A stretch of 64,000 nt of DNA from Erythrobacter sp. Its GTDB lineage: Bacteria; Pseudomonadota; Alphaproteobacteria; Sphingomonadales; Sphingomonadaceae. A model generated the notes under the pieces. That model saw nothing but the letters and a program-made list of their open reading frames with translations, did no database searches and was not told the origin of the DNA. A program made the position numbers and the translations under genes. Positions 1 to 45,047 of the stretch are shown piece after piece (the stretch's first letter is position 1; every line of letters begins with the position of its first letter). Location of the stretch: assembly GCA_027311945.1 (NCBI GenBank), contig DAICXZ010000030.1, forward strand, positions 124,001 through 188,000. Reading direction: 5' to 3'.

Positions 1-410
1 CCCGCGCGTTTGACCATTTTCGCCGCTTCGACATTGGCGGCCGCATCGTTCATCGGGTCGGCGAGGGCAAAGCGACGGATGCCGTTGGTGGCCAGCGTGC
101 GGTAGGCCAGCTCCATGAATTCGGGCGTGGCGGTCTCCCACGAGATGAAGCGGAAGCCGGTGGAGAGGAACTGCAACGGCGTGGTGCGGCAGATGCGCGC
201 CATTTCGCGGATGCGCTCCCACGGGTCTTCCTGCTTGTAGCGCACGGCGACGCCCATGTGGGTCGAGGTGGTAAAGTCGATCGCCTTGTACCCGGCGCGC
301 TCCATGGCTGGGGCGATGGTGAGCGTCTTGGCGGTGTCGATCCCGGTTGCGCCCCACAGGCACTGGTTGCCGTCGCGCAGCGAGGTTTCAACGATTTCTA
401 TGTTGGCCAT
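1..410 (-). CDS. Carboxyltransferase subunit of a biotin-dependent carboxylase (partial)
   Basis: Only the first 136 residues are present; the gene runs off the left edge. From ATG 410 the protein opens with ETSLRDGNQCLWG, the start of the HMGL-like TIM barrel found in pyruvate carboxylase and oxaloacetate decarboxylase alpha subunits, where the RDxxQ residues bind metal and substrate. Its role would be to move CO2 from carboxybiotin to an acceptor. It is the last visible gene of the minus-strand operon that also encodes the biotin carrier (531-992) and a split PEP-synthase-like enzyme, so the acceptor is probably a phosphorylated aryl ketone rather than pyruvate (inference). A biotin carboxylase subunit should lie further left. 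Confidence 0.8.
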   Translation of the reverse strand, partial: MANIEIVETSLRDGNQCLWGATGIDTAKTLTIAPAMERAGYKAIDFTTSTHMGVAVRYKQEDPWERIREMARICRTTPLQFLSTGFRFISWETATPEFMELAYRTLATNGIRRFALADPMNDAAANVEAAKMVKRA

Positions 411-431
411 GCAAACCTCTCAAACCCACAT

Positions 432-521
432 CCGCTCGCCCTGAGCTTGTCGAAGGGCTGTCCTTACTTCTGGTGCCGCGCTCGGAGAAAAGCAGTCCTT
501 CGACAAGCTCAGGATGAGCGG
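432..521. repeat. Dispersed palindromic intergenic repeat (copy A)
   Basis: Two arms containing CCTGAGCTTGTCGAAGG and its reverse complement are separated by about 45 bp of less conserved sequence, in the gap between the carrier protein and carboxyltransferase genes. The same arms recur at 43230-43320 and 44955-45047. The layout is that of a mobile REP/MITE-like intergenic element; transcribed, it would fold into a long hairpin inside the operon. Confidence 0.8.
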
Positions 522-530
522 GGTCGGCTC

Positions 531-992
531 TTAATCCACCTTCACCCGAAACAGCGCCTGCCCCTCGGCCACCGCGCTGCCGTTCTCGGCCAGCACCGCT
601 GTCACCTCGCCCTCGACCCCCGCGGCGACCGAGTTCATCAGCTTCATCACCTCGATGATCGCGACCACCGTGTCCTTGCTCACCCGGTCGCCGACTTTCA
701 CGAAGTCGGGCTCGCCGGGGCGCGGGGCGGTGTAGAAGTTGCCGATCAGCGGGGCGGGAATTTCGATTTCGTCCGCTCCTGCCGCAGGGGGCGGGGGAAG
801 CGGTTCGGCCGTAGCCGCATCAGCGAGCGTGGGGCGCTCTTCCGGCTCGTCCCTGTCGTCCTCGCGCCAGCCGCCAGCGCCATCGCGGCTGATCCGCAGG
901 CGAAAGTCGCCTTGCGTCAGGTCGAGTGTCGTGAAGTGCGAGGCATCGAGTAATCGTGCGATCTCGACGATATCCTTGCCGGTCAAGCTCAC
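531..992 (-). CDS. Biotin carboxyl carrier protein
   Basis: A 153-residue AccB-like protein. The C-terminal half is a biotinyl domain with the acceptor lysine in EVMKLMN, preceded by a Pro/Ala-rich linker and an N-terminal helix (DIVEIARLLDAS) typical of AccB. The start is GTG 992, which overlaps the stop of the upstream gene (GTGA), so translation is probably coupled. Its partners are the carboxyltransferase to the left and, functionally, the phosphotransferase pair upstream. The location outside an accBC pair and inside an aromatic operon suggests a dedicated carrier for a specialised carboxylase, not fatty-acid synthesis (inference). Confidence 0.88.
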   Translation of the reverse strand: MSLTGKDIVEIARLLDASHFTTLDLTQGDFRLRISRDGAGGWREDDRDEPEERPTLADAATAEPLPPPPAAGADEIEIPAPLIGNFYTAPRPGEPDFVKVGDRVSKDTVVAIIEVMKLMNSVAAGVEGEVTAVLAENGSAVAEGQALFRVKVD

Positions 993-2044
993 TTCTTCGC
1001 CCCCGCGGTGAACAGGCCCATCACATGGGCTATCGGATTGGCTTCTTTCGCTACGACCGGCGCGGCCTTGGCATCCTTCTGCGCCCAGACCGTTTCGGGG
1101 CGCGATTGCAGCAGCAGCACCTTCCCGTCCTGATCGAGCGCCCACTCGATATCCTGCGGTTTGCCATAGTGCTTTTCCACCTTGCGCCCGATGGCGCGAA
1201 GGGCTTGCAAGTCGTCGTCCGTCAGGCAAGGGGCGGAGCGGATTTCTGCTTCGTTTTCAATTTCCTGAATGCCGCCCCCGGGTGCGGGGACCTGCCTCGC
1301 GTGCTTGTCCGAAATATCGCGTTGGCTAATCTCGCCGGTGATTTTCCCCAGCACCCATTTGTCCGGCGTAATCTCGCCCGAAACCACCGAGGAACCGAGG
1401 CCCCAAGCGCCCTCGATGGTAATCACGGACTTGTCACCTGTTGTCGGCGAGCGAGTGAACATCACGCCTGCACACTTCGCCTCGACCATGCGCTGGACCA
1501 CCACCGCCATGGCCACGCCAGCTTCGGGCAGGCCGTGCTTGCGGCGGTAGGTCATGCTCTCGACCGAGTAGAGGCTGGCCCAGCATTCGCGGACCTTTTC
1601 GATCATCGAAGCGCCATCGAGCACCCACAGGAAGGTGTCCTGCAGGCCGGCGAAGCTGGCGTCGTCGGCGTCCTCGGTGGTGGCCGAACTGCGCACCGCA
1701 ACGGGCCGTTGGTCGGCGCACAATTGATTCAATGCGTCCTTGAGCGCCGTCTCCACCTCGCCGGTCATCGGATCGCCGATCACCCGCGCGCGCAACTGCT
1801 CGGAAAGCCGTGTGGCGGCGTCCAGATCGTTCGGGTCGAGCGCCTCGACCAGAGGCCTGATCGGTTCCTTCGCTTCGAGTGCTTCAAGGAATTGTTCGAA
1901 GGCTGCGGTCGTCACCACGAAGCCATCGGGCACTGCGATTCCGGCGCGCACAAGTTCGCCCAGTGAGCCGCCTTTTCCGCCAGCCGTGGGCCGGTCGGCG
2001 ATCCCGACTTCGGAAAACCATGCGACGGATTTCATGGCGCTCAC
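989..2044 (-). CDS. ATP-grasp (PPDK/PEP-synthase N-terminal) subunit of a two-part aryl phosphotransferase
   Basis: About 350 residues matching only the N-terminal nucleotide-binding part of PEP synthase/PPDK: GGKGGSLGEL near residue 23, VRSSATTEDADDASFAGLQDT in the middle, and a C-terminal QDIEWALD...LLLQSRPE motif. The phosphohistidine domain is absent and is encoded by the adjacent gene, with which it overlaps (GTG 2044 over TGA 2041-2043; ATG 2035 is an alternative start). Phenylphosphate synthase and the acetovanillone kinases AcvAB/HpeHI have this split architecture. The expected role is ATP-driven phosphorylation of the swivelling histidine on the partner protein. Confidence 0.85.
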   Translation of the reverse strand: MSAMKSVAWFSEVGIADRPTAGGKGGSLGELVRAGIAVPDGFVVTTAAFEQFLEALEAKEPIRPLVEALDPNDLDAATRLSEQLRARVIGDPMTGEVETALKDALNQLCADQRPVAVRSSATTEDADDASFAGLQDTFLWVLDGASMIEKVRECWASLYSVESMTYRRKHGLPEAGVAMAVVVQRMVEAKCAGVMFTRSPTTGDKSVITIEGAWGLGSSVVSGEITPDKWVLGKITGEISQRDISDKHARQVPAPGGGIQEIENEAEIRSAPCLTDDDLQALRAIGRKVEKHYGKPQDIEWALDQDGKVLLLQSRPETVWAQKDAKAAPVVAKEANPIAHVMGLFTAGAKK

Positions 2045-3864
2045 GCATCCTCCAGTATCGAAACCGTGCCCTTGCCGCCGTCGACGCGGATGCGTGCGCC
2101 GTCCTTGATTTTGACCGTGGCAAGGCCGGTGCCGACCACGGCGGGCAGGTTATACTCGCGCGCCACAATCGCCATGTGGCTCATCGAGCCGCCAATGTCG
2201 GAAACGGCAGCGCTGATCTTCTGGAACAGCGGGCTCCAGGTCGGATTTGTCACCTGGCACACGAGGATATCGCCTTGCTGGATGCGGCCGATCTCGCTGA
2301 CCGACTTCACTACCCGCGCCGTGCCTTCCACCACGCCCGAACAGGCGGCAAAGCCCTTCAGCTCGTTGGGATTCTCGGTCCCGTCATCAAGCCAGCGGTC
2401 CAGGTTCTCGCGGGTAATGCCCCACAGCATGTTGATCGCCGGATCATCGATGGCGTCGGGCACATTGCCCAGCGCGGGTGGGGTGGGGTGCTTGCCCCAT
2501 TCGACAATGGCCGCCTTGCGGGTCGCAATAATGGCGGGCCAGTAGGCCGGACCGCGCGGCCCCGCGCCAACGCCCCAGGCCAGCATCAGGTCGATGATCG
2601 CGCTTTCCAGCTCGTATTGGGTGAGGTGGAACACGTCCTCCTCTACGCCGTCCGGCCCGAAGAAGCCGTGCGCCAGCAGCAGCCGGCCGAACTCGCGGAT
2701 CTTGTTGAAGAACAGGTTGGTGTACCAGTGCTCGCAATAGAACTTGTGCCCCTCGACATAGGGAAACACGCGGTGCGCCAGCTCGATCAGCTGGTCGTAG
2801 GTGGCGCGGTCCTCATCCGTGTCGAGCAGTTCGCGGTAGTCGGCGACGAGCTGTTCGCGCTCTTCAATCAGTTGCGCGGTTGGGCGCTCGATATTCTCGC
2901 CCGCCTTCACCTTGGCGATATAGCCGGGCAGCGCCGCGAAGGGCAGCGACAGATCGTCGTTCCAGCTACGGTGATAGTGGTAGAATCCGTCTCCGCTGGA
3001 GACGTTGAACCACGGGTCGCGGCTCTGCTCCAGATCGGCCAGCCATTCCTTGCCCTTGTCGCTCACCTTGTCGAGATCGGCCAGCACCTGCTCGATGCTC
3101 ATATCGTCGGTGAAATGATGGTCGACTCCCAGCTCGACCGCGCGGCGGGCGAGGCGCTTCACCTCTTCATCGGGACGGAAAATCTCGGCTTCCATCCCCG
3201 CCACCATCCGCGAAATCGCCTGATCCGAAATCTCCGGGAAGGCCTTTTTGCAGAACCCGAAGAAGGTCATGTAGGCGCCATAGCCGAGCAGCAGGAACTC
3301 GAAGTGGTGGTGCCACATCCGGTGGTAGCCCTCGATCTGCTGCTGGTAGATTTTCAGCAGATCGTGGCTGGCGGGAACGGCATCACCCTCGGTGATCGTT
3401 TCGAGCGGCTCGTAATCCGGCAAGGATGGGCTGGGCAGCGCCTGCGCCTCGGCGATCAGCGCCTTCATCTTCACCTTCCACTGGTCGTAGAGGCTTTCCC
3501 AGTTTTCGTAATAATGCCCGGCGCGCTGCTGGAACTCGGCCACGCGTTCGGCGATCTCGTCCGGGTCGGTGACCACCACGCCGCCGATATAGACCCGCCC
3601 GTTGATGATGCGGTGATCGACGCCCTTGGCCGTGGGCAGCACATGCACGCGGGTGTTGAACGCGCCCATCGCGACATAGGCGGCCTCAGCCGTGATCATA
3701 TCGAAATGGTGCATGGGTTCTGGAAAGTGCATCGAGTTGTAGAACCAGAACTTCTCGTCGTCCTCGGGCACGAACTGGGTAAAGTAGGGATAGGCCGCCT
3801 GCGCGGCCTCGGTGCCGGGGATCACGGCAATGCTGCTGGGCAGGGCAAAGCTCTTGTCGGGCAT
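2041..3864 (-). CDS. PEP-utilising, phosphohistidine-domain subunit of aryl phosphotransferase
   Basis: A 607-residue protein. The last ~90 residues are the swivelling PEP-utiliser domain with the phosphorylated histidine in IGGSMSHMAIVAREYNLPAVVG (family pattern GGxxxHxAIxARE). The N-terminal ~480 residues are mostly helical, rich in Trp/His/Tyr, and probably form the acceptor-binding part. With the ATP-grasp protein at 989-2044 it reconstitutes a phenylphosphate-synthase-like enzyme. Together with the biotin carboxylase genes downstream, the best match is the aryl-ketone activating kinase of acetovanillone catabolism. It heads the operon; the 156-bp gap upstream carries a candidate operator at 3983-4009. 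Confidence 0.82.
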   Translation of the reverse strand: MPDKSFALPSSIAVIPGTEAAQAAYPYFTQFVPEDDEKFWFYNSMHFPEPMHHFDMITAEAAYVAMGAFNTRVHVLPTAKGVDHRIINGRVYIGGVVVTDPDEIAERVAEFQQRAGHYYENWESLYDQWKVKMKALIAEAQALPSPSLPDYEPLETITEGDAVPASHDLLKIYQQQIEGYHRMWHHHFEFLLLGYGAYMTFFGFCKKAFPEISDQAISRMVAGMEAEIFRPDEEVKRLARRAVELGVDHHFTDDMSIEQVLADLDKVSDKGKEWLADLEQSRDPWFNVSSGDGFYHYHRSWNDDLSLPFAALPGYIAKVKAGENIERPTAQLIEEREQLVADYRELLDTDEDRATYDQLIELAHRVFPYVEGHKFYCEHWYTNLFFNKIREFGRLLLAHGFFGPDGVEEDVFHLTQYELESAIIDLMLAWGVGAGPRGPAYWPAIIATRKAAIVEWGKHPTPPALGNVPDAIDDPAINMLWGITRENLDRWLDDGTENPNELKGFAACSGVVEGTARVVKSVSEIGRIQQGDILVCQVTNPTWSPLFQKISAAVSDIGGSMSHMAIVAREYNLPAVVGTGLATVKIKDGARIRVDGGKGTVSILEDA

Positions 3865-4020: not shown

Positions 4021-4875
4021 TCAGGCGGGCGGCTGGCCGAAGCGGAAGCTGGAGGCGGCGATGGCCCCCATGAATGCATCCTCGTGGTATGACAGCGCGG
4101 CCTTGTCGCTTTCGGCCGCGCCGAGCGCCACGTGGAGCGGCATCAGGTGATCCTCGCGCGGATGGACGGCGCGGGCGGCAGGCGCGCGCTCCCATTCGAG
4201 CAGGCGCTTCACCCGCTCCTCGCCGGTCATGCCGATCAGGCTTTCCTGTAACCAGCCATCGAAGGCGAGTGACACGTCGCGCCCCACAGGGCCGAGCGCG
4301 CGCAGATTGTGGAACGAGAGGCCGCTGCCGATGATCACCACGCCCTCATCGCGCAAGGGAGCAAGCAGGCGGCCCGCCACGACATGGGCGGCAGGATCGT
4401 AGTCGGCACGGATCGACATCTGCACGATCGGCATCTGCGCCTCGGGCCAGATCGCCTGCATCAGGCTGAAGGTGCCATGATCGAAGCCGCGCGCCGGATC
4501 GGTGGCGCTGGCCATGCCGCCATTGCTCAGCAGCGCGGCGGCCTGTTCGGCGAGCGAGGGCAGGCCGGGGGCCGGATAGGTGATCTCGTAAGTGTGCGGG
4601 GGGAAGTTGTAATAGTCGTAGATCATCCCCGGCTGCGCACCGCTGGAAAAGGTGAACACCGGCTCCTCCCAGTGTGCGGTGACGACCAGCACGGCGCGCG
4701 GACGCTCGTTCAACTCACCCCGCAGCGCCTTCAGCGAGGCGTCGAGCACGTCATAGGCATTGCCCGTCTCCATCCACGGCCACGGCCCGCCGCCATGGCT
4801 GAGGTAGTAGGTGGGCAGGGTCGCAAGAGTCTGGGCGGTGGGCATGTTCGGAAAATGGGCGCAGCACCACGACAT
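4021..4875 (-). CDS. Extradiol dioxygenase, DODA/LigB superfamily (class III)
   Basis: A 284-residue protein of the DODA-type extradiol dioxygenase family. Candidate metal ligands are His27 (LSHGGG), His68 (VTAHWEE) and the histidine in the C-terminal HPREDHLMPL motif; His133 (GFDHG) is the likely catalytic base region. These enzymes open catechol-type rings next to the two hydroxyls. ATG 4875 is preferred over ATG 4845 because GAGG sits 7 nt before it. It lies 10 bp downstream of the AraC-type gene on the same strand, so the two are probably co-transcribed. The substrate cannot be read from sequence; the aromatic neighbours support a catechol or gallate derivative. Confidence 0.8.
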   Translation of the reverse strand: MSWCCAHFPNMPTAQTLATLPTYYLSHGGGPWPWMETGNAYDVLDASLKALRGELNERPRAVLVVTAHWEEPVFTFSSGAQPGMIYDYYNFPPHTYEITYPAPGLPSLAEQAAALLSNGGMASATDPARGFDHGTFSLMQAIWPEAQMPIVQMSIRADYDPAAHVVAGRLLAPLRDEGVVIIGSGLSFHNLRALGPVGRDVSLAFDGWLQESLIGMTGEERVKRLLEWERAPAARAVHPREDHLMPLHVALGAAESDKAALSYHEDAFMGAIAASSFRFGQPPA

Positions 4876-4884
4876 ACAAGAGCC

Positions 4885-5871
4885 TCAGCTTTGTGGGGGC
4901 AGTCCGCCGCGCCACTGGCTGGGGGTGATCCCGAAGCGTTTGCGGAACAGGCGGGTGAAATAGCCCGGATCGAGAAAGCCCGTGCGATAGGCCAGCTCGG
5001 AAATCGGCAGCGAGGCGAGGCGCGGATCGGTCAGCATGACGCTGGCATGTTCGAGCCGGGTGGCGTTCAGTTCGGCGACGAAGCTGGTCCCGCGCGCGGC
5101 GAGCAGTGATTGCAGGTAGCGTTTGGAAATGCCTTCTTCCGCCGCGACTGTTTCGGGCGAGAGGCCCGCTTCGGCATAGCTCGTCTCTATCCGGCGCAGG
5201 ATGCGCGTGGCGAGCTGGCTGCGGTGGCCGCCCGCGCCCGGTAGCGCTGCCGCAACCTCGTGGGCGGAGGTGGCAAGCGCGAGCAGGCTGCCGAATTGCT
5301 CTGCGATCAGCGGTCGGGGGAGCGGGGCCTTATCCAGCCCGGTGTCGAGGATCGTTTCGATCAGCGCCCCGAGCGGCGCGCCCCAGCCGGAATGCGCGTC
5401 GTAAGGGCGGGCCAGCAGACCGGCGGGATCGGGCAGGTGCCGCTCAAGCCAGGCCTGCGGCATCATCAGGTCGATGCATTCGTGCTCGGTCGCCATTTCC
5501 ATCTGGTAATAGCGGGTGTTGTCGAGCAGCACGAACTGGCCCGGTTCCACATCGAAGCGCCGCCCGCCCATGCGCGTCTGCATCGTGCCTTCGCGCGAGT
5601 GGACCAGCTGGATCGACGGCGCCGCGCGCATCGCCAGCCGGTCGGCTCCCACATGCGTCACGCGCTGGGCCGGGGCATAGAGGTGCAGCAGCCGCAATTG
5701 CCCGATGCCGTGGCTGATCCAGCGGGCCGCAAAGGCGTTCGGGTCGAACACCTCGACCTCGATCGGGGCTATGGTGCTGGCGGCCCAGTCGCTCCACGCG
5801 CTGATCGCCTCGCGCCGGGCCAGCCCGGTCGAGCTCCAGCTTTCATCGGGCGAGGGCGGGGCCTTGGCCAT
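4885..5871 (-). CDS. AraC-family transcriptional regulator
   Basis: A 328-residue protein. Residues ~35-190 form the AraC-binding-like sensor domain of FeaR/XylS-type regulators (FDPNAFAARW, FVLLDNTRYYQMEM). The C-terminal ~100 residues are a double helix-turn-helix of AraC type ending LAYRTGFLDPGYFTRLFRKRFGITPSQWR. It is divergent from the amidohydrolase at 5977 and upstream of the dioxygenase at 4021-4875. It is therefore the natural candidate activator for one or both directions, with an aromatic inducer (inference). No clear direct-repeat binding site was recognised in the 105-bp divergent gap. Confidence 0.88.
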   Translation of the reverse strand: MAKAPPSPDESWSSTGLARREAISAWSDWAASTIAPIEVEVFDPNAFAARWISHGIGQLRLLHLYAPAQRVTHVGADRLAMRAAPSIQLVHSREGTMQTRMGGRRFDVEPGQFVLLDNTRYYQMEMATEHECIDLMMPQAWLERHLPDPAGLLARPYDAHSGWGAPLGALIETILDTGLDKAPLPRPLIAEQFGSLLALATSAHEVAAALPGAGGHRSQLATRILRRIETSYAEAGLSPETVAAEEGISKRYLQSLLAARGTSFVAELNATRLEHASVMLTDPRLASLPISELAYRTGFLDPGYFTRLFRKRFGITPSQWRGGLPPQS

Positions 5872-5976: not shown

Positions 5977-7014
5977 ATGGGAAAGAAGTGCCGCCTGATC
6001 GCCTGCGAAGAAGCCTGGTCGATCCCCGAGGTCGCCGCCGAACTGAAGAAGGTGGCGGGCAGCCCGACGCAGAGCGCTGACAAGCTGCTGGTGAAGGGCA
6101 TTTACGATGCCGAGGCCGATACCTCGGGCTATGGCAAGATGGATTTCCTCGGCGGGCTGCTTGATGTGGAAGAGCAGCGCCTGCCGCAGATGGACGAGCA
6201 TGGCGTCGACATGCACCTGCTCACGCTTACCGCTCCGGGCGTGCAGATGTTCGATGCCGATACCGCCACCGACCTTGCCGCACTGTCGAACGACAAGATG
6301 GCGGAAATCTGCGCCAAGTATCCCAAGCGCTTCGCCGGGCTAGGCAGCTTCGCCCCGCACAGCCCAAAGCGCGCGGCGAAAGAGATCGAGCGCGTGATGG
6401 GCGAGCTGAAATTGAACGGGCTGGTGGTGAACGGCCACACCAATGGCGACTACTTCGACGACTATCGCTTCTGGCCGATCTTCGAGGCCGCCGAGGCGAC
6501 CAATGCCACGATCTACATCCACCCGCGCGGGCCTTCCGATACTCTCAAGGGTCCGCTGATGGACTATGCCATGGATTCGGCCATGTGGGCCTATGGGGTC
6601 GAGGTCGGCACCAACATGCTGCGGATGATGGCGAGCGGTCTGTTCGACCGCTTCCCGAACCTGAAGATCTGCGTCGGCCACATGGGCGAGATGGTGCCGT
6701 TCTTCATCTGGCGGATCAACTTCATGAACAGCCGCGCGCAAAAGGTGGGCCGCGCGCCAAAGACCGAGCGCAGCATGGAGGAATATTTCAAGGACAACTT
6801 CGTGTTCACCACCAGCGGCGTGGAAGACCCGCTGGCGCTGCGCTATGCAATTGACCGGATGGGCGTGGAAAACGTCATCTGGGCGATCGACTATCCCTAT
6901 CAGCCAATGAAACCGGCGGTGGACTTCATCGAGAATTTCGCCTGCTCGGACGAGGAAATGCACGCGTTGTGCCACGGCAATGCTGAGCGGGTGTTCCACA
7001 TTGCGGCGGAGTGA
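5977..7014 (+). CDS. Amidohydrolase-2 family decarboxylase (LigW/gamma-resorcylate decarboxylase type)
   Basis: A 345-residue TIM-barrel protein. Metal-binding and catalytic motifs of the ACMSD/LigW family are visible: ACEEAW at residue ~11, IYIHP in the middle, VGHMGE, and the late aspartate in WAIDYPYQ. The family performs non-oxidative decarboxylation of aromatic ortho-hydroxy acids such as 5-carboxyvanillate, or of muconate-type products. ATG 5977 has a purine-rich GGGAGAGAGAG just upstream; reading frame further upstream is antisense to the AraC gene and was not used. The role in this cluster is probably removal of a ring carboxylate before LigAB cleavage. The precise substrate is unknown. 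Confidence 0.85.
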   Translation: MGKKCRLIACEEAWSIPEVAAELKKVAGSPTQSADKLLVKGIYDAEADTSGYGKMDFLGGLLDVEEQRLPQMDEHGVDMHLLTLTAPGVQMFDADTATDLAALSNDKMAEICAKYPKRFAGLGSFAPHSPKRAAKEIERVMGELKLNGLVVNGHTNGDYFDDYRFWPIFEAAEATNATIYIHPRGPSDTLKGPLMDYAMDSAMWAYGVEVGTNMLRMMASGLFDRFPNLKICVGHMGEMVPFFIWRINFMNSRAQKVGRAPKTERSMEEYFKDNFVFTTSGVEDPLALRYAIDRMGVENVIWAIDYPYQPMKPAVDFIENFACSDEEMHALCHGNAERVFHIAAE

Positions 7015-7127: not shown

Positions 7128-8255
7128 ATGGCTGATAATCACCCTCTCGAAGGCATCAAGGTCGTCGAACTGGCGCGCATTCTCGCCGGGCCCTGGGCCG
7201 GGCAGGTGCTGGCCGACCTTGGCGCCGAGGTGATCAAGGTCGAAAGCCCGGCGGGCGACGATACGCGCCGCTGGGGGCCGCCGTTTATCGAGAACGCCGA
7301 CGGGTCGCAGGACGCAGCCTATTTCCACGCCTGCAACCGCGGGAAGGCCAGCATGGTCGCCGACTTCCGCGACGAGGGCGACCTCGCCCGCGTTAAGGAG
7401 CTGATCGCCGGCGCCGACGTGGTGATCGAGAACTTCAAGACCGGCGGTCTCGCGCAGTTCGGGCTCGACTACGCTAGCCTTGCCGCGACCAATCCCGGCC
7501 TCGTCTATTGCTCGATCACCGGCTTCGGCCAGACCGGCCCCTATGCGCAGCACGCGGGCTACGACTTTATCGTGCAGGGCATGAGCGGGATCATGGACCT
7601 GACCGGCCAGCCCGACGGCCCGCCGACCAAGATCGGCGTGGCCTATGCCGACATCCTCACCGGGCTTTACAGCGTGATCGGTATTCAGGGGGCGCTCCAC
7701 ATGCGCCAGCGGACCGGGCGCGGGCAGGCGGTCGATATGAGCCTGCTTGACGTGATGACCGGCACGCTCGCCAATCAGGCGATGAACTATCTCGCCAGCG
7801 GGATTGCGCCGCACCGGATGGGCAACGCGCATCCCAATATCGTGCCTTACGAAGCCTTTCCCTGCGCCAATGGCTGGCTCATCATCGCGGTCGGCAACGA
7901 TAGCCAGTTCGCGCGCCTCGCGGCGGTGCTGGGGCTGGAGGTCGAAGAGGGCTGGTCGACCAACCCCGGCCGCGTGGCTGATCGGGCGCGGGTCTCTCCC
8001 GCCGTTGCGGCGAAGACCGCCCTGTGGCTGCGCGACGAACTGCTCGCGCGGCTCGAAGCCGAGGGCGTGCCCGTCGGCCCGATCAATGATGTGGCGCAGG
8101 CGCTGGCCGATCCGCAGGTCGCGGCGCGCGGCATGGTGCTCGAAATGGCGCGTGAGGGGGCACACCCGGTGAAGGGCCTGCGCACCCCGATCACGTTTTC
8201 CGATGCCGAGCTGGCGCTCAATGCTGCCTCGCCCATGCTGCCAAAGAAGGACTAA
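7128..8255 (+). CDS. CaiB/BaiF (class III) CoA-transferase
   Basis: A 375-residue family III CoA-transferase. The N-terminal GIKVVELARILAGPWAGQVLADLGAEVIKVE is diagnostic, and Asp175 (AYADILTG) is the expected catalytic aspartate that forms the acyl anhydride and thioester intermediates. ATG 7128 gives the usual family length and excludes upstream codons lying in the repeat. It is followed after 2 bp by the OsmC-tandem gene, so the two form an operon. In this cluster it could pass CoA to an aromatic or beta-keto acid so that the side chain is cleaved by a CoA-dependent route (inference). Confidence 0.88.
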   Translation: MADNHPLEGIKVVELARILAGPWAGQVLADLGAEVIKVESPAGDDTRRWGPPFIENADGSQDAAYFHACNRGKASMVADFRDEGDLARVKELIAGADVVIENFKTGGLAQFGLDYASLAATNPGLVYCSITGFGQTGPYAQHAGYDFIVQGMSGIMDLTGQPDGPPTKIGVAYADILTGLYSVIGIQGALHMRQRTGRGQAVDMSLLDVMTGTLANQAMNYLASGIAPHRMGNAHPNIVPYEAFPCANGWLIIAVGNDSQFARLAAVLGLEVEEGWSTNPGRVADRARVSPAVAAKTALWLRDELLARLEAEGVPVGPINDVAQALADPQVAARGMVLEMAREGAHPVKGLRTPITFSDAELALNAASPMLPKKD

Positions 8256-10247: not shown

Positions 10248-11494
<1,247 letters not shown>

Positions 11495-11564
11495 GGCGCG
11501 CCCCTAGCAGAGCTTCCCGAACAGCAAAAGATGGCCCTTGCGCGAAAAGCGACGGGCCTGAGCG

Positions 11565-11942
11565 TTAGCGGTTCTTGTAGCCGAGATACCAGTCGGCAGC
11601 CTGTTCGCGGGCCTCTTCATCGTGGGTCTTGTAGGCGCGGTGGTCGAACTTCTGGCGCGTGGCGAGCAGCACGGGGGCGGGCAGGGGCTCGTCGAAGGCC
11701 ATTCCCGCCAGGCCTTTTTGCATCCAGACGATCGTGCCAAAGGTCTCGAAGTCGAGCCAGGCAAGGACGCCGTCCTCGCCGGCCCTGACTTCCTCGGGCA
11801 CCATCAGCTTGGCCCCGGATTGGGAAATGTCGCGCAGGCTCACCTTGTGCGTGCCCGTAAGCGTGATGAGACGCCCGGGCACCGACAGGCGTAGACGGCT
11901 ATCGCGGCGGCGACCTACGTTAAGAGGGGTTTCAACTCCCAT
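11565..11942 (-). CDS. PilZ-domain protein
   Basis: A 125-residue single PilZ domain. The c-di-GMP-binding signature is present as RRRDSRLRL (RxxxR type) at residues ~11-20 and the DISQSGAKL (DxSxxG) motif at ~39. The protein probably senses cyclic di-GMP and acts on motility, envelope or surface polysaccharide through a partner. It stands alone between ligA and acs, both on the same strand, with no obvious link to aromatic catabolism. Confidence 0.85.
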   Translation of the reverse strand: MGVETPLNVGRRRDSRLRLSVPGRLITLTGTHKVSLRDISQSGAKLMVPEEVRAGEDGVLAWLDFETFGTIVWMQKGLAGMAFDEPLPAPVLLATRQKFDHRAYKTHDEEAREQAADWYLGYKNR

Positions 11943-12033
11943 AGCCCCGCGAGAATGACAGGTCGGCGCTTCCAGTTTGTTCTCGAGCCCCTAAGGGTTT
12001 GCCCTAGATTGTGCCTTTCCTTAACCATAGCTG

Positions 12034-12063
12034 CCAAGGCCGCACCTGGCGGCTGGGCCTTGG
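12034..12063 (-). terminator. Hairpin downstream of acs
   Basis: CCAAGGCC and GGCCTTGG arms form an 8-bp perfect stem 24 bp past the acs stop codon. No U-tract follows on the minus strand, so an intrinsic terminator is only possible, not shown. The rest of the gap 11943-12086 holds nothing recognised. Confidence 0.4.
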
Positions 12064-12086
12064 CTTTCGGGCCTTTCGGGCTGGAA

Positions 12087-14036
12087 TCAGACCTTTGCAT
12101 GCGGCGAGTTGGCGAGCAGATCGTCAACCACACCCGGATCGGCAAGGGTGGACGTGTCGCCGAGGTTGCCGGTGTCGTTCTCGGCGATCTTCCTGAGGAT
12201 GCGGCGCATGATCTTGCCCGAGCGCGTTTTCGGCAGACCGGGCGCGAATTGCACCACATCGGGCGTGGCGATCGGGCCGATTTCCTTGCGCACCCATTGC
12301 ACCAGTTCCTTGCGCAGCTCCTCGCTGTCCTCGGTACCTGCCACGGTGGTGACGAAAGCATAGATGCCCTGTCCCTTCACATCGTGCGGCATGCCCACCA
12401 CGGCTGCTTCGGCAACGCTGTGATGTTCGACCAGCGCGCTTTCGACCTCGGCGGTGCCCATGCGGTGGCCGCTTACGTTGATCACATCGTCGATGCGGCC
12501 GGTGATCCAGTAGTAGCCATCGGCGTCGCGGCGTGCGCCGTCGCCGGTGAAATACTTGCCGGGATACTGGGTGAAATAGGTCTGGATGAAGCGATCGTGA
12601 TCGCCATAGACGGTGCGCATCTGGCCGGGCCATGAATCGAGGATCACCAGTGCGCCCTCGGTCGCTCCCTCCACGATATGCCCGTCGGTCGGATCGACCA
12701 GCGCGGGCTGGACCCCGAACATCGGGAAGCTCGCCGCGCCGGGCTTGAGCGCATGGGCGCCGGGCAGGGGCGTGATCATGTGGCCGCCGGTTTCGGTCTG
12801 CCACCAGGTGTCGGCAATGGGGCAGCGGCTGTCGCCGACCACATTATAGTACCAGTCCCAGGCCTCGGGATTGATCGGTTCGCCGACCGAGCCGAGAATC
12901 CTGAGGCTCTTGCGGCTGGTCTTCTTCACCCATTCATCGCCCTCTCGCATCAGCGCGCGCAGCGCGGTGGGGGCGGTGTAGAACTGCTCGACCTTGTACT
13001 TGTCGACCACCTGCCAGAAGCGGCTGAAATCGGGATAGTTGGGCACGCCTTCGAACATCAGCGTGGTCGCGCCGTTCGCCAGCGGGCCGTAAACGACATA
13101 GGAATGGCCGGTCACCCAGCCGATGTCGGCCGCACACCAGTAAACCTCGCCGGGGCGGTAATCGAACACGTATTCGTGCGTCATGCTCGCCCAGACGCCG
13201 TAGCCGCCGGTGGTGTGGAGCACGCCCTTGGGCAGGCCCGTGCTGCCCGAGGTATAAAGGATGAAGAGCGGGTCTTCCGCGTTCATTTCCTCAGGCGGAC
13301 AGTCGGCATTGTGCGGCTCGATCGCGTCGTGCCAGTCGACATCGCGGCCTTCGACCATCGGCACATCGGCTCCGGTGTGGCGCAGCATGATGACCGTGCG
13401 CACCTTTGCTTTCTCGCAGGCCGCATCGACATTGGCCTTCAGCGGCACCTTCTTGCCTCCGCGCAGGCCTTCGTCGGCGGTGAGCACGATCTGGCTGTCG
13501 CAATCGCTGATCCGCTGCGCCAGCGCATCGGGGCTGAACCCGGCGAACACGATCGAATGGACCGCGCCGATCCGCGCGCAGGCGAGCATGGCGACTGCGG
13601 CCTCGGGCACCATCGGCAGGTAGATCGTGACCCGGTCGCCCTTCTTCACGCCATCGGCCATCAGCGCATTGGCGAAGCGGCACACGTCCTTGTAAAGCTG
13701 ATCGTAGGTGATGATGCGGTTGGGCGTATCGGGGTGATCGGGTTCCCAGATGATTGCCACATCCTGCGCACGCTTTTCGAGGTGCCGATCAAGGCAGTTG
13801 GCGGCAAGGTTCAGCGTGCCGTCCTCGAACCAGCGGATGCGGAAGTCGTCGCGGTCGAACGAGGTGTTCTTGATCTTCGTGGGCTGGCGCATCCAGTTGA
13901 GCCGCTGCGCCTCACCGAGCCAGAAACTGTCCGGATCGTCGATACTGGCGCGATATTTCAGCGCATAGGTCTCGGCGTTGATCTTGGCATTAGCGGCCCA
14001 TTCGGGGCTGACCGGATGGATGGCGTGCTCGTGCAT
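12087..14036 (-). CDS. acs: Acetyl-CoA synthetase (AMP-forming)
   Basis: A full-length 649-residue Acs. Motifs include [13 protein letters not shown] (P-loop), [17 protein letters not shown], the [23 protein letters not shown] hinge and the C-terminal [11 protein letters not shown] whose lysine is acetylated in controlled Acs enzymes. It converts acetate, ATP and CoA to acetyl-CoA. Acetate would be released by CoA-dependent cleavage of aryl beta-keto acids or by other side-chain removal, so its place between two aromatic gene sets may be functional, although acs is also ordinary central metabolism. Confidence 0.97.
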
Positions 14037-14083
14037 TCCTGGCTCCCAGCTTTTGTTGGACGTAAGCTAGGGTCTGCCAGGCC

Positions 14084-14524
14084 TCAACGCCAGAGGGCAT
14101 TGAGCGCCGGAAGCAAATGGTCGCGGTGGCGGGCCGGAATGCGGGCGAGCAATTCGTCCTCGAACTCGTGGATAATGCCGAGCGCGGCCTCCATCCGCTC
14201 ACGCCCCGCCGCGGTCAGCAGAAGCGCCTGCGATTTGCCGTCGAGCGGCTGGCGTTCGATCAGGCCTTCGTCGTCCAGCTTCTTGAGCAGCGGCACCATG
14301 TTGGCGCGCTGGATATCGAGCTGGCGGCCAAGCGCGCTGGCAGTGACGTCGGCATTTTCTGCAATCAGAATCAGCACCGAGGCATCGACCTGACGCAGGC
14401 CCAGTGTAGCCAGCCGCGCACCGAGTTCGGCGGCGGTCGCATGGGCAGCACGGCGCAGCGAATAACCGGGGAGCTGGGGCAGGGGATCGCGCATGATGAC
14501 GGTGTAGCGATTGCTGTTGCTCAT
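14084..14524 (-). CDS. ferC: MarR-family regulator of the ferBA operon (FerC-like)
   Basis: A 146-residue MarR protein with winged-helix core (DVTASALGRQLDIQRANMVPLLKKLDDEGLIERQPLDGKSQALLLTAAG split across helix, recognition helix and wing). It is divergent from ferB. In Sphingobium SYK-6 the MarR protein FerC represses ferBA and is released by hydroxycinnamoyl-CoA; the same arrangement supports that role here. The chosen start ATG 14524 sits inside the palindrome 14517-14529, implying autorepression. ATG 14494 is an alternative. The symbol is given by context and family. Confidence 0.8.
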   Translation of the reverse strand: MSNSNRYTVIMRDPLPQLPGYSLRRAAHATAAELGARLATLGLRQVDASVLILIAENADVTASALGRQLDIQRANMVPLLKKLDDEGLIERQPLDGKSQALLLTAAGRERMEAALGIIHEFEDELLARIPARHRDHLLPALNALWR

Positions 14525-14529
14525 AGCAA
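14517..14529. promoter_or_regulatory. Palindromic operator over the ferC start codon
   Basis: TTGCTCATAGCAA is a perfect 5-bp inverted repeat around the CAT that is the complement of the regulator's ATG. Looser related arms follow between 14520 and 14553 (TAGC..GCTA, ATTG..CAAT) toward ferB. It is the best candidate for the MarR-protein site in the divergent promoter. Confidence 0.55.
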
Positions 14530-14601
14530 TCCAGATAGCTATTGCCCATAACAATACCGCTGCCACGAGTCGTGGCGGTGGCCTAAGAGGAGGAAGATTT
14601 T

Positions 14602-15459
14602 ATGGCTGGTCCGTCGAAACCCGATCCGCGTCCGCAGGAAGAAACCGTCAAGGTCGATATCGTCGACGGTGTTGCCTGGGTCGCATTCAACCGCCCCGAC
14701 AAGCGCAACTGCATGAGCCCCAAGCTCAACAAGCAGATGCTGAAGGTTCTCGAAGAGCTGGAATTCCGCGACGACGTGCAGGTGCTGGTCCTTACCGGCG
14801 AGGGCACTGCCTGGTCGGCCGGCATGGACCTGCTCGAATACTTCCGCGAAGCCGAGCTGCAGGGCCTGCACAAGACCCGCGAGCATCAGCGCCAGGCCTA
14901 TGGCTGGTGGGAACGCCTGCGCTGGTATGAAAAGCCGACCGTGGCCATGATCAACGGCTGGTGCTTCGGCGGTGCCTATGGCCCGCTGTTCGGCTGCGAC
15001 CTTGCCTTCTGTTCGGACGATGCGCAGTTCGGCCTCAGCGAAATCAACTGGGCGATCCTGCCCGGCGGCGGCGCCTCGAAGGTCGCGGCTGAGCTGATGG
15101 GCTTCCGCGATGCCATGTACCACGCGATGATGGGTGAGAACCTCACCGGTCCGCAGGCTGCCGCCAAGGGCATGGTCAACGAATCGCTGCCCGCTGACAA
15201 GCTCAAGGAGCGCGTGCAGGAAGTGTGCGACGTGCTGAAGAAGAAGGACGGGCAGGCTCTGCGTGCCACCAAGTGGGCGATGCGCCGCGTGCGCGAGATG
15301 ACCTACGACAACGCCGAGGATTACCTGATCCGCGCACAGGAAGCGCTGAACGATTTCGGCGGCTGGGAAACCCGCAAGGAAGCGACCAAGCAGTTCCTTG
15401 ACGAGAAGACCTTCAAGCCGGGTCTTGGCGCTTTCGACAAGAACAAGCTGCAAGGCTGA
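14602..15459 (+). CDS. ferB: Hydroxycinnamoyl-CoA (feruloyl-CoA) hydratase/lyase
   Basis: A 285-residue crotonase-fold enzyme very close to HCHL/FerB proteins: VAFNRPDKRNCMSP near the start, GEGTAWSAGMDLLEYF (oxyanion hole), MINGWCFGGAYGPLFGCDLAF, FGLSEINWAILPGG with the catalytic glutamate, and a C-terminal KQFLDEKTFKPGL. It hydrates feruloyl-, caffeoyl- or coumaroyl-CoA and splits it to the benzaldehyde and acetyl-CoA. AGGAGG lies upstream of ATG 14602. It is followed by the CoA ligase ferA and controlled by the divergent MarR gene. Confidence 0.92.
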   Translation: MAGPSKPDPRPQEETVKVDIVDGVAWVAFNRPDKRNCMSPKLNKQMLKVLEELEFRDDVQVLVLTGEGTAWSAGMDLLEYFREAELQGLHKTREHQRQAYGWWERLRWYEKPTVAMINGWCFGGAYGPLFGCDLAFCSDDAQFGLSEINWAILPGGGASKVAAELMGFRDAMYHAMMGENLTGPQAAAKGMVNESLPADKLKERVQEVCDVLKKKDGQALRATKWAMRRVREMTYDNAEDYLIRAQEALNDFGGWETRKEATKQFLDEKTFKPGLGAFDKNKLQG

Positions 15460-15469
15460 TCCTGATCCT

Positions 15470-15566
15470 CCCCTCCCCGTTGGGGAGGGGATCGAGGGGA
15501 GGGGGCAACGGTGCAATCCTTGCTACACCCCCACCCGAACCCTCCCCCGCACGGGGGAGGGCTTTT
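15470..15566. repeat. Two GC hairpins between ferB and ferA
   Basis: A CCCCTCCCC/GGGGAGGGG hairpin (15470-15490) and a CCCTCCCCC/GGGGGAGGG hairpin followed by CTTTT (15540-15566) occupy the ferB-ferA gap. They look like the paired arms of a sphingomonad intergenic repeat. The second has the form of a weak intrinsic terminator, so ferA expression may be reduced relative to ferB. Confidence 0.65.
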
Positions 15567-15596
15567 CGTGCAACGACACGCCGGAGAGATTTCCCG

Positions 15597-17717
15597 ATGA
15601 CCACCACACGCCGTTTCACCAACGAACAGATCGACCGCCTGCTGCGCCCGAAGTCGGTCGCCGTGATCGGTGCGTCCGATCGCCATGGCGCGCTTGGCTG
15701 CACGCTGCTTAACAACCTCGTGCAGTACAAGTTCGCGGGCGAGATCTACCCGGTGAACCCCAAGCGCGACGAGCTGCAGGGCCTCAAGGTCTATCACTCG
15801 GTGAACGAACTGCCGCACGGCGTCGATTGCGCGGTGCTGGCGATCCCGCGTCCCTTCGTGCTCGATACCGTGCGCGACCTTGCCAAGAATGGCTGCGGCG
15901 CGGTGGTGATCTATGCCGCGGGCTTCTCCGAGGCGGGCGAGGAAGGCGCGAAAGACCAGGCCGAACTGGCGCGCATCGCGGCGGAATCGGGCATGATCGT
16001 CGAAGGGCCGAACTGCCTCGGCTGCACCAACTATGTCGAAGGCATTCCGCTGACCTTCGTCGAAACCAACATGAAACAGCCTGGCCCCGGCCAGCGCTCG
16101 GTCGGCATTGCCAGCCAGTCGGGAGCGCTGGCAGCGGTGCTTGCCACCACGCTGCACCCGCGCGGCTGCTATGTCTCGACCTCGGTCAGCACCGGCAACG
16201 AAGCGGCCTCGGGCGTGGAAGACTATGTCGAATGGCTGGTCGACGATCCGGCGACCAACGTGATCGCCATGTATGTCGAGAACTTCCGCCGCCCGGCCGC
16301 CTTCCTCGCCGCCGCGCGCCGCGCGCGTGAGGCGGGCAAGCCGATCGTGCTGCTGCATCCGGGCAAAAGCTCGAAGGCGCAGGAGAGCGCCGCCACCCAC
16401 ACCGGCGCGATGGCGGGCGACTATGCGCTGATGAAGGCCAAGCTCACCCGCGAGGGCGTGATCTTCGCCGATACGCTGGAAGAACTGGCCGACATTGCCT
16501 CCATCGCCGTCACCTGCCCGAGCCTGCCGGGCGCGAACATGGCTGTGCTGGGCGAAAGCGGCGCGTTGCGCGGCCTCGCCTTCGACCTTGCCGAAGATGT
16601 CGGCCTCGATCTGGTCGACCTGAACGATGAGAACAGCCCGAAAATCCGCGCCGTGCTGCCCGATTTCGTGCCGGTCTCGAACCCGACCGACATCACCGCG
16701 ATCGGCCTCAGCGAGCCCGAAATCTACACCAACCTGTTGGTCGCGCTGCTCGAAGACGACCGCATCGGTTCGGTGGTCGCCTCGATCATCCAGTCGGACC
16801 CGATCACCAGCGAGATCAAGTTCCCGCCGATCCAGAAGGCCATCGAAACCAGCTCGGGCAGCAAGCCGCTGGTCTTCGCCGGCGTGGATGAAGGCGCGAA
16901 CGTGCCGCAGGAATATATCGACGGCCTCGCCGCCGCCGGCATTCCCTATTTCCGCTCGACCGAGCGCGCCTATCGCGCCATCGCGCGGTTGGCCGATCTC
17001 GCCAAGCGCGATCTGGCAGACCGTTCGGGCGCTCCCATCGCTCTGCCGGCGCTGGCCGACGAGCATGGCGTGATCCCCGAATACAAGGCGAAGAAGCTGC
17101 TGGCCGACGCGGTGAGCTTCCCCGTCAGCCAGTTCGCACCAACTGCCGACGAAGCGGCCGCCGCCGCCGAGGCCATCGGCTTCCCGGTGGTAATGAAGGC
17201 GCAGGCCGCTGCGCTGGGTCACAAGTCCGATGCGGGCGGGGTGATCCTCAACCTGAAGACCGCTGACGAGGTGAAAGCCGCCTTCACGAAGATGTACGCC
17301 AACGTCGCGGCATACAACGCCTCGATCAAGCTCGACGGCGTGCTGGTCGAGAAGATGGGCAAGATGGGCGTCGAAATGATCGTGGGCGCCAAGTCCGATC
17401 CGGAGTGGGGGCCGGTGGTGCTGGCAGGCTTCGGCGGCGTGACTGCCGAAATCCTCAAGGACGTGAAGCTTTTCACCCCCGATCTGGGCGTGGAGCAGGT
17501 CAAGGAAGGGCTGCTCAAGCTGAAGCAGGCCCCGCTGCTGACCGGCTGGCGCGGCAGCCCCGCGCTCGATGTCGACGCGCTGGCGGCGCTGATCGTCAAG
17601 GTTGGTCAGGTGATGACGGGCAATCCGTCGATCCGCGAGATCGACCTCAACCCGGTGATCATCCACCCGGCTGGCGAAGGCGTGGTTGCGCTCGATGCGC
17701 TGATGCTGGTGGACTGA
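15597..17717 (+). CDS. ferA: Feruloyl-CoA synthetase, NDP-forming acyl-CoA synthetase family
   Basis: A 706-residue ADP-forming acyl-CoA synthetase: CoA-binding domain (PKSVAVIGASDRHGALG, residues ~18-35), succinyl-CoA-ligase-like domains with the phosphohistidine region (ATHTGAMAGDYALM), and a C-terminal ATP-grasp (EYKAKKLLADA..VVMKAQAAALGHKSDAGGV..GFGGVTAEILKDV). FerA of Sphingobium SYK-6 belongs to this family rather than to the usual AMP-forming ligases, and the ferC-ferB-ferA order agrees. It activates ferulate, p-coumarate or caffeate for FerB. Start ATG 15597 follows GGAGAGA. Confidence 0.88.
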   Translation: MTTTRRFTNEQIDRLLRPKSVAVIGASDRHGALGCTLLNNLVQYKFAGEIYPVNPKRDELQGLKVYHSVNELPHGVDCAVLAIPRPFVLDTVRDLAKNGCGAVVIYAAGFSEAGEEGAKDQAELARIAAESGMIVEGPNCLGCTNYVEGIPLTFVETNMKQPGPGQRSVGIASQSGALAAVLATTLHPRGCYVSTSVSTGNEAASGVEDYVEWLVDDPATNVIAMYVENFRRPAAFLAAARRAREAGKPIVLLHPGKSSKAQESAATHTGAMAGDYALMKAKLTREGVIFADTLEELADIASIAVTCPSLPGANMAVLGESGALRGLAFDLAEDVGLDLVDLNDENSPKIRAVLPDFVPVSNPTDITAIGLSEPEIYTNLLVALLEDDRIGSVVASIIQSDPITSEIKFPPIQKAIETSSGSKPLVFAGVDEGANVPQEYIDGLAAAGIPYFRSTERAYRAIARLADLAKRDLADRSGAPIALPALADEHGVIPEYKAKKLLADAVSFPVSQFAPTADEAAAAAEAIGFPVVMKAQAAALGHKSDAGGVILNLKTADEVKAAFTKMYANVAAYNASIKLDGVLVEKMGKMGVEMIVGAKSDPEWGPVVLAGFGGVTAEILKDVKLFTPDLGVEQVKEGLLKLKQAPLLTGWRGSPALDVDALAALIVKVGQVMTGNPSIREIDLNPVIIHPAGEGVVALDALMLVD

Positions 17718-36200: not shown

Positions 36201-37625
36201 ATGAACAGCGAAATCTGCTTTGACGAGATGCACGCACCCGACGGATCGGTGCGCCCGGCCTATGCCGGATATCAGGAATGGCTCTCGCAGCAGGATGAAC
36301 GCTGGATGCACTCGAAAAGCTTCGAGGCCGAGACCTTCTTCCGCAAGACCGGGATCACCTTCAACGTTTATGGCGAGGATGACGCCGAGGAACGGCTGAT
36401 CCCTTTCGACATGGTGCCGCGCATCATTACCGGCCGCGAATGGCGCCGCCTGTCGCGCGGTATCGAGCAGCGGGTGCGGGCGCTGAACGCCTTCATGCAC
36501 GACCTTTATCACCGGCAGGAGATCATCCGCGCGGGCCGCCTGCCGGAGCGATTGTTCCGCAACAACGATGCCTGGCTGCCGCAGATGGTCGGCTTCACTC
36601 CGCCGGGCGGCGTTTACACCCATATCGTCGGCATCGACCTGGTGCGCACCGGGCCTGACGACTTCATGGTGCTCGAGGATAATGCACGCACGCCTTCAGG
36701 CGTCTCGTACATGCTCGAAAACCGCGAGACGATGATGGCGATGTTCCCCGAGCTGTTCAGCCATGTCTCGGTGCGGTCGGTGTCGGACTATCCGGCGCGG
36801 CTGGCCGCCAGCCTTGCCGCCTGCGCGCCGCATGGGGCAGGGCCGAAACCCTCGATTGCGGTGCTGACGCCGGGCATCTACAATTCGGCCTATTTCGAGC
36901 ACGCCTTCCTCGCTGACCAGATGGGCGCCGAACTGGTTGAGGGCAGCGACCTGCGCGTGGTGGATGGCAAGGTGCAGATGCGCACTACCGGCGGCTATCA
37001 GCCGGTCGATGTGATCTATCGCCGGGTTGACGATGAATTCCTCGATCCGCTCACCTTCAATCCGGATTCGGTGCTGGGCGTGCCGGGGATCATGGATGTC
37101 TATCGCGCCGGCAACGTAACGATCGCCAATGCGCCGGGCACGGGCGTGGCGGACGACAAGGCGATCTATTCGTTCATGCCCGAGATTGTGGAGTTCTACA
37201 CTGGCGAAAAGCCGCTGCTCCCGAATGTGGAAACCTGGCGCTGCGCCGATCCCGATGCGCTGAAATATGTGCTCGATAATCTGGCAGAACTGGTGGTGAA
37301 GGAGGTCCATGGCTCGGGCGGCTATGGCATGCTGATCGGCCCGACCTCATCGAAGAAGGAGATTGCCGCCTTCCGCCACAAGCTCGAAGCCAAGCCGGAA
37401 AATTACATCGCCCAGCCGACACTGTCGCTGTCGACCTGCCCGATCCTCACCCGCAAGGGGCTCGCGCCGCGCCATGTCGATCTGCGCCCCTTCGTGCTGT
37501 GCTCGCCATCGGGGGTCGACATCACGCCGGGTGGGCTGACCCGCGTGGCGATCAAGAAGGGATCGCTGGTGGTCAATTCGAGCCAGGGCGGCGGCACCAA
37601 GGATAGCTGGGTGCTGGACGACTGA
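36201..37625 (+). CDS. Circularly permuted ATP-grasp peptide ligase
   Basis: A 474-residue circularly permuted ATP-grasp protein (CP_ATPgrasp/DUF404-407): RLIPFDMVPRIITGREW at residue ~65, FMVLEDNARTPSGVSYMLENR, ANAPGTGVADDKAIYSFMPEIV and KEVHGSGGYGMLIGP. It is the first gene of the ATP-grasp/alpha-E/transglutaminase/Anbu cluster predicted by comparative genomics to make and break an unusual peptide. AAAGGAG precedes ATG 36201, and the stop overlaps the next start (TGATG). Confidence 0.9.
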   Translation: MNSEICFDEMHAPDGSVRPAYAGYQEWLSQQDERWMHSKSFEAETFFRKTGITFNVYGEDDAEERLIPFDMVPRIITGREWRRLSRGIEQRVRALNAFMHDLYHRQEIIRAGRLPERLFRNNDAWLPQMVGFTPPGGVYTHIVGIDLVRTGPDDFMVLEDNARTPSGVSYMLENRETMMAMFPELFSHVSVRSVSDYPARLAASLAACAPHGAGPKPSIAVLTPGIYNSAYFEHAFLADQMGAELVEGSDLRVVDGKVQMRTTGGYQPVDVIYRRVDDEFLDPLTFNPDSVLGVPGIMDVYRAGNVTIANAPGTGVADDKAIYSFMPEIVEFYTGEKPLLPNVETWRCADPDALKYVLDNLAELVVKEVHGSGGYGMLIGPTSSKKEIAAFRHKLEAKPENYIAQPTLSLSTCPILTRKGLAPRHVDLRPFVLCSPSGVDITPGGLTRVAIKKGSLVVNSSQGGGTKDSWVLDD

Positions 37626-38587: not shown

Positions 38588-38607
38588 GCCAGCGGAGCAA
38601 GCCCACC

Positions 38608-39423: not shown

Positions 39424-39488
39424 AGGCGCGGGGATGAGGAACGCGGCCTGACCCTCACACGGGCTGGCCGCCATAGGAAGATCGATCG

Positions 39489-43229: not shown

Positions 43230-43320
43230 GTTCGTCCTGAGCTTGTCGAAGGACTGTTTTGACCTTCCGGCCTAGCGCTGGAAAACAAGGACAGCCCTTC
43301 GACAAGCTCAGGGCGAACGG
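43230..43320. repeat. Dispersed palindromic intergenic repeat (copy B)
   Basis: CGTCCTGAGCTTGTCGAAGG and the inverse CCTTCGACAAGCTCAGGG arms bracket ~45 bp, between serC and serA. Same family as 432-521 and 44955-45047; in the mRNA it would form a large hairpin between the two serine genes. Confidence 0.8.
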
Positions 43321-44954: not shown

Positions 44955-45047
44955 CGCTCAGCCTGAGCTTGTCGAAGGCTCGCCCTTTCTTTCTGCGACT
45001 GAGGTTGCCAAAGGGAGGGCAGTGCTTCGACAAGCTCAGCACGAGCG
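44955..45047. repeat. Dispersed palindromic intergenic repeat (copy C)
   Basis: CAGCCTGAGCTTGTCGAAGG and the inverse GCTTCGACAAGCTCAGCACG arms bracket ~45 bp between serA and hisZ. This is the second copy within 2 kb and the third in the window. Confidence 0.78.

Follow-up and report, generated by a model that had tools for sequence, protein, structure and literature searches.

The hpe reactions have been measured in Rhodococcus rhodochrous GD02 and, according to the available text of PMC9618137 and PMC12167813, comprise phosphorylation of the ring hydroxyl by a dikinase (HpeHI), ATP-dependent carboxylation of the methyl ketone (HpeCBA) and dephosphorylation (HpeD). HpeCBA is stated in one or both of these papers to carboxylate phosphorylated ketones only, and acvABCDEF of Sphingobium lignivorans SYK-6 is given as homologous and syntenous to hpeHICBAD (PMC9618137). 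We analysed a 64,000-nucleotide stretch of an Erythrobacter sp. genome (hereafter the window; contig C10, positions 124001-188000; genome of 3.04 Mb, 99.95% complete), at the left end of which a sequence-only reading had proposed an aryl-ketone kinase/carboxylase operon of the Acv/Hpe type. This assignment is well supported, because the larger kinase subunit falls in the AcvA clade (support 98/97) and the operon has five of the six acv genes, in unchanged order. The remaining one, encoding biotin carboxylase (BC), is missing. Because a defining subunit was tested for and is absent, we file the operon as a BC-less variant and not as a full member of the Acv/Hpe pathway. Genome searches demanding all six genes would miss such lineages, since descriptions of the pathway include a three-component carboxylase (PMC13101465).

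On the minus strand of the window, the gene order is an AcvA/HpeH-like kinase subunit of 607 residues (H; 2041..3864), an AcvB/HpeI-like ATP-grasp subunit of 351 residues (I; 989..2044), an AcvC/HpeC-like biotin carboxyl carrier (531..992) and an HMGL-type carboxyltransferase cut at the window edge (first 136 codons at 1..410; 486 residues in full, running left to C10:122950). Pfam and profile matches confirmed the earlier description of split ATP-grasp and phosphohistidine proteins followed by a carrier and a carboxyltransferase. The sole Pfam match in H is the C-terminal phosphoenolpyruvate (PEP)-utiliser swivel domain (residues 528-599; 79.6 bits), and its catalytic His563 (codon at 2176..2178, minus strand) lies in the motif S-D-I-G-G-x-M-S-H, which was invariant in the alignments made and corresponds to HpeH His581 (PMC12167813, as far as its available text goes). 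Subunit I matched PPDK_N (338.9 bits) and, among solved structures, 9goj best (E=2e-80). The carrier (Biotin_lipoyl, 62.3 bits) has a GTG start overlapping the stop of I and carries its biotinyl lysine (codon at 642..644, minus strand) in the motif EVMKLMN. The sequence-only reading had all genes coupled by GTGA overlaps; this is correct for H/I (2041-2044) and I/carrier (989-992), but carrier and carboxyltransferase lie 120 bp apart. Their spacer (411-530) holds an inverted repeat with arms at 438-456 and 497-515, and no BC gene. Beyond the window, a HAD-IIA phosphatase of 276 residues (C10:122099-122929; under its subfamily cut-off) follows the carboxyltransferase after 20 bp on the same strand.

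The acv locus of SYK-6 (genome G144, locus L058) has the order H, I, carrier, BC, carboxyltransferase and HAD enzyme, and the window operon keeps this order minus the BC gene, which in SYK-6 lies between carrier and carboxyltransferase (L058:4809-6173). Judged by this gene order, the window carries an acv operon from which the fourth gene is missing. Identity to the SYK-6 proteins is 78% for H, 68% for I, 43% for the carrier, 71% for the carboxyltransferase and 62% for the HAD enzyme, and an AraC-type gene stands beside the kinase in both loci. As a stand-in for hpeHICBADEF of strain GD02 we used a cluster (L061) of Rhodococcus sp. JS3073, whose 1.39-Mb plasmid carries a full hpe-type set with CoA ligase and HpeF-type hydrolase genes. 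It encodes the same enzyme types at 32-47% identity and has its own BC, CoA ligase and HpeF-type hydrolase, all three of which the window operon lacks. In both L058 and L061 the BC gene comes before that for the carboxyltransferase. In Table 1 of PMC9618137, by contrast, carboxyltransferase is the name given to hpe gene four and BC that given to gene five; the masses reported there (HpeB 49.3, HpeA 57.4 kDa) likewise fit the opposite naming.

The kinase pair was assigned by trees and domain content. Window H grouped with SYK-6 AcvA, and the phenylphosphate synthase of Azoarcus as well as two cre-type Rhodococcus kinases fell outside this clade. H is thus not placed closer to phenylphosphate synthase, a placement that the sequence-only reading had named as speaking against its proposal; that identity was ruled out by the tree and by the adjoining biotin enzymes. 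A single clade of all Hpe/Acv sequences including the Rhodococcus protein was neither shown nor rejected (approximately unbiased test, p 0.124 for H and 0.107 for I). The phenylphosphate synthase of Azoarcus KH32C is likewise a two-component phenolic dikinase (45% identical), but its neighbours are UbiD-type phenylphosphate carboxylase genes, whereas those in the window are biotin enzymes. A single-chain PEP synthase or pyruvate phosphate dikinase was also ruled out: ATP-grasp and swivel domains are on separate proteins, and Pfam, which matched one family in each, found no PEP/pyruvate-binding domain in H or I. The MarK pathway of Novosphingobium aromaticivorans is called very similar in the available text of PMC13101465; MarK is a one-component kinase, in contrast to the two-component kinase of the window. 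The N-terminal part of H as specificity domain rests on the analysis of HpeH, as given in the available part of PMC12167813; a fold model of H had a mean pLDDT of 53.8 and was set aside. Kinase pairs of this kind were also seen without carboxylase genes, in Thermomicrobium roseum (beside accC on the opposite strand) and in the haloarchaeon Haladaptatus salinisoli.

The sequence-only reading expected a BC gene to the left of the window. The left flank examined (L002, C10 106001-126000) instead yielded the end of the carboxyltransferase, the HAD phosphatase and the biotin synthase gene bioB, with no BC gene in flank or operon. bioB (C10:121016-122050 = L002:15016-16050; 389 bits) lies 48 bp after the phosphatase on the same strand and is the only copy over the cut-off in the genome; an O-acetylhomoserine sulfhydrylase gene is also on the operon strand in this flank. 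A profile search of the genome with PF02785 found two BC C-terminal domains. One belongs to AccC, encoded immediately after AccB, and the other to a protein of ~1,200 residues with the BC domain at its start and a biotinyl motif at its end, which its layout alone marks as urea-carboxylase-like. AccC is therefore the sole stand-alone BC found. The operon itself was ruled out as an acetyl-CoA carboxylase: its carrier scored 97.7 bits against TIGR00531, under the cut-off of 115.2, and the AccB-AccC pair lies elsewhere in the genome. The earlier reading had counted a missing BC partner as refuting its proposal. The operon indeed lacks one, and the genome offered only AccC and the urea-carboxylase-like protein, but the BC-less form of the operon is conserved, recurs and is under constraint, and for that reason we did not take the absence as a refutation.

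We typed loci as BC-less or BC-plus by the absence or presence of a BC gene between carrier and carboxyltransferase. An H orthologue was found in 27 of 298 family genomes, this one included; the other 26 are 77-87% identical to window H, including one truncated where its contig ends, and the remaining family matches to H span the C-terminal swivel region only. Sixteen of these genomes were BC-less and eight BC-plus (24 of 27 typed). In a scan of named genomes, of which the best 80 of 277 loci were kept, 64 could be typed (35 BC-less, 29 BC-plus), and the closest named relatives by H within these 80 were Aurantiacibacter xanthus (97%) and A. suaedae (96%). The three family genomes and 16 named-genome loci left untyped miss the carrier or the carboxyltransferase in the fetched stretch. 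Merging of thirteen duplicate pairs, addition of two plasmid loci (L060 and L061; ten plasmid hits, seven fetched) and exclusion of the Thermomicrobium locus, which has neither carrier nor carboxyltransferase, gave 77 distinct typable loci, 42 BC-less and 35 BC-plus.

In a tree of H, I and carboxyltransferase, BC status changes at least five times, and the well supported branches alone force three changes; the tree was built quickly, its only support values are SH-aLRT, and its outgroups drew long-branch warnings. Its deepest branches are BC-plus, so that loss is the natural direction. Thirty-one BC-less loci form one branch at support 98, and the named ones among them are mostly Erythrobacteraceae. 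Further BC-less loci come from metagenome-assembled genomes (MAGs): one alphaproteobacterial (L097, placement unsure), two gammaproteobacterial (L131, L132) and eight of Acidobacteriota (L129, L130, L135, L137-L139, L144, L146), of which L135 may be a separate change. The biotinyl motif was present in all 42 BC-less carriers (EVMKLMN in 38, EVMKLMH in 4). bioB occurred within the fetched stretch in 9 of 31 other BC-less versus 0 of 12 BC-plus sphingomonad loci. The literature searches made gave no description of the BC-less form; the available text of PMC9618137 mentions hpe homologues clustered in various combinations across diverse bacteria, and its Supplementary Fig. S5 may show BC-less clusters.

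A displaced BC gene was sought with PF02785 in the 26 other family genomes, 15 of them BC-less, and in 17 genomes reached via named loci, 14 of them BC-less. Each of the 15 BC-less family genomes had one AccC-size frame (450-606 residues), and the 11 of these frames that were fetched adjoin AccB; all other BC frames in these genomes were at least 627 residues long, except one of 529 in the fragmented G275. All eight typed BC-plus family genomes, by comparison, had AccC and the operon's own copy, G115 having one more. A. suaedae matched the window genome with AccC and one large BC protein. Two further BC-less genomes (G300, G305) showed a single BC frame, of AccC size, and another two (G302, G304) one full AccC-size frame, with the others longer or cut. 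Among the copies fetched from four Acidobacteriota and two gammaproteobacterial BC-less genomes no displaced acv-type BC was seen, all being AccC-side; this search did not extend to the genomes of L130, L138, L139 and L144.

Biotin carboxylases can be shared between carboxylases. We consider it likely that the operon encodes an Acv/Hpe pathway in which the ketone is phosphorylated, carboxylated with a carrier charged by AccC, and dephosphorylated; its reactions are inferred by orthology to characterised enzymes. Subunit I would bind ATP and phosphorylate His563 of H, and H would then use this phosphate to phosphorylate a 4-hydroxyaryl methyl ketone such as 4-hydroxyacetophenone or acetovanillone on its ring hydroxyl. 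AccC would carboxylate the carrier biotin in trans, the HMGL-type carboxyltransferase would move the carboxyl group to the methyl carbon of the phosphorylated ketone, and the HAD enzyme would remove the phosphate to give an aroylacetate, which further enzymes would cleave to 4-hydroxybenzoate or vanillate. If AccC serves acetyl-CoA carboxylase as well as the aromatic-ketone carboxylase, fatty acid synthesis and the catabolism of lignin have to compete for a single subunit. With BC-plus and BC-less relatives whose kinases are 77-87% identical to window H, subunit borrowing is testable by gene swap.

Carrier divergence bears on this point. Identity to the window carrier was 54-62% in 15 BC-less and 37-47% in the eight BC-plus family genomes, a step larger than for H, I, carboxyltransferase or HAD enzyme. 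Such a step is as expected if the partner had changed, though the carrier is also the fastest-evolving of these proteins. BC-less sphingomonad carriers and AccB share a mean identity of 33%.

Several observations weigh against AccC as the partner. It is probably borrowed from fatty acid synthesis, but the case is one of elimination, AccC being the only stand-alone BC found. At 13 differing carrier sites, the BC-less state matches AccB at five and the BC-plus carriers at one, so convergence is weak, and within the biotinyl domain the window genome's own carrier and AccB share 33% identity, less than any other of the 20 pairs; we did not rely on convergence on AccB to prove that AccC is used. 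Genes can be missing from drafts and MAGs, and one BC-less genome (G301) had no AccC-size frame at all, which suggests an incomplete assembly. Extra short BCs were present in A. xanthus (three, L172-L174) and A. rhizosphaerae (one, L176), and these could serve the operon in the two species, because they fall on the acv side of the BC tree, at low support. The BC of L172 adjoins a carrier; L173, L174 and L176 each come with a carrier and a carboxyltransferase of their own, which share 38-51% identity with the acv proteins. These last three clusters are possibly for other ketones.

An operon that has lost one of the subunits present in other members could be a decaying remnant, but we regard this as the least probable explanation. 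Relative to A. xanthus and A. suaedae, dN/dS was 0.05 for H, 0.07 for I, 0.18-0.20 for the carrier, 0.06 for the carboxyltransferase and 0.04-0.07 for the HAD enzyme (0.04-0.20 overall); three more distant BC-less comparisons gave 0.13-0.34, and three BC-plus pairs 0.05-0.26. These ratios show purifying selection on all five genes still present, which makes decay unlikely. The frames are open, and the catalytic residues are kept: at least 97% of the 77 sequences have the catalytic histidine, the biotin lysine and carboxyltransferase D13, K177, H207 and H209, whose roles we take to be those of other carboxyltransferases. The same state is moreover shared by 31 Erythrobacteraceae-type loci on one branch. 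That another BC domain charges the carrier seems very unlikely as well. The urea-carboxylase-like protein holds the only other BC domain found in this genome, but that domain is fused to its own carrier, and the BC-less G300 and G305 show nothing beyond a single AccC-size frame.

The transcarboxylase 5S and oxaloacetate decarboxylase alpha families work without a BC subunit, and the carboxyltransferase matches both among solved structures. As in transcarboxylase 5S with its biotin carrier, a carrier and an HMGL-type carboxyltransferase stand here without a dedicated BC. The carrier might thus take its carboxyl group from a metabolite, for example malonyl-CoA via another carboxyltransferase, with no BC involved. 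The acceptor here would differ, being a phosphorylated aryl ketone, the operon has no second carboxyltransferase gene, and the neighbourhood suggests no donor. Orthologous HpeCBA, moreover, used ATP and bicarbonate (available text of PMC9618137). We therefore give this explanation little credence, and hold it just as doubtful that the recurrent loss reflects a shift to another mechanism, namely a BC-free aryl-ketone transcarboxylase fed from a central metabolite such as malonyl-CoA and spending no ATP of its own on carboxylation. A different phenolic substrate, neither 4-hydroxyacetophenone nor acetovanillone, is unlikely too. Characterised homologues vary in preference (available text of PMC12167813 and PMC13101465), and genes for a LigW-like decarboxylase and for hydroxycinnamate catabolism lie nearby; H, however, is 78% identical to SYK-6 AcvA over its full length and is accompanied by the same gene set.

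Upstream of the operon, on the minus strand, lie genes for a LigB-family extradiol dioxygenase (4021..4875; Pfam LigB, 95.9 bits), whose role in the pathway is putative, and for an AraC-family regulator (4885..5871; Pfam), a candidate regulator of the operon. AraC homologues more than 50% identical occur in all 12 BC-plus sphingomonad loci and in 30 of the 31 other BC-less ones. Diverging from the AraC gene are a LigW-like decarboxylase of the amidohydrolase type (5977-7014) and a class III CoA transferase (7128-8255), the latter only a candidate for aroylacetate cleavage. HpeF was ruled out as the identity of the amidohydrolase, its best solved match being 5-carboxyvanillate decarboxylase (4icm, E=3.6e-111). 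At the same identity threshold, the fetched stretches held LigW-like homologues at 23 of 31 other BC-less and 7 of 12 BC-plus sphingomonad loci, and CoA transferase homologues at 15 of 31 and 1 of 12. Further aromatic catabolism genes (10248-17717) encode a class III extradiol dioxygenase beta subunit, an acetate-CoA ligase, a p-hydroxycinnamoyl-CoA hydratase/lyase and an ADP-forming-type CoA ligase; a 134-residue open reading frame at 11090-11494 may be the dioxygenase alpha subunit.

The operon contains no HpeE- or HpeF-type gene, and the genome was not searched for HpeE, HpeF, VceA or VceB. A BKACE gene elsewhere in the genome is a candidate only for the aroylacetate-cleaving enzyme. N. aromaticivorans has the same gap, VceA and VceB homologues being absent according to the available text of PMC11837543. 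The genome also encodes a LigM-like demethylase (5tl4, E=2.9e-146) and PobA (617.6 bits against a cut-off of 538.7), and the genome search gave no match for VanA. Given PobA, the LigM-like demethylase and the aromatic catabolism genes of the window, growth on both 4-hydroxyacetophenone and acetovanillone is plausible.

The inverted repeat in the carrier-carboxyltransferase spacer belongs to a REP-like repeat, CCTTCGACAAGCTCAGG, with five matches in the window compared with none in shuffled sequences. Its copies (438-456, 497-515, 43234-43252, 43296-43314 and 44960-44978) include two inverted pairs, one of them within the operon. A cluster at 36201-40244 encoding circularly permuted ATP-grasp, alpha-E, transglutaminase-like and proteasome-like proteins is unrelated to the operon.

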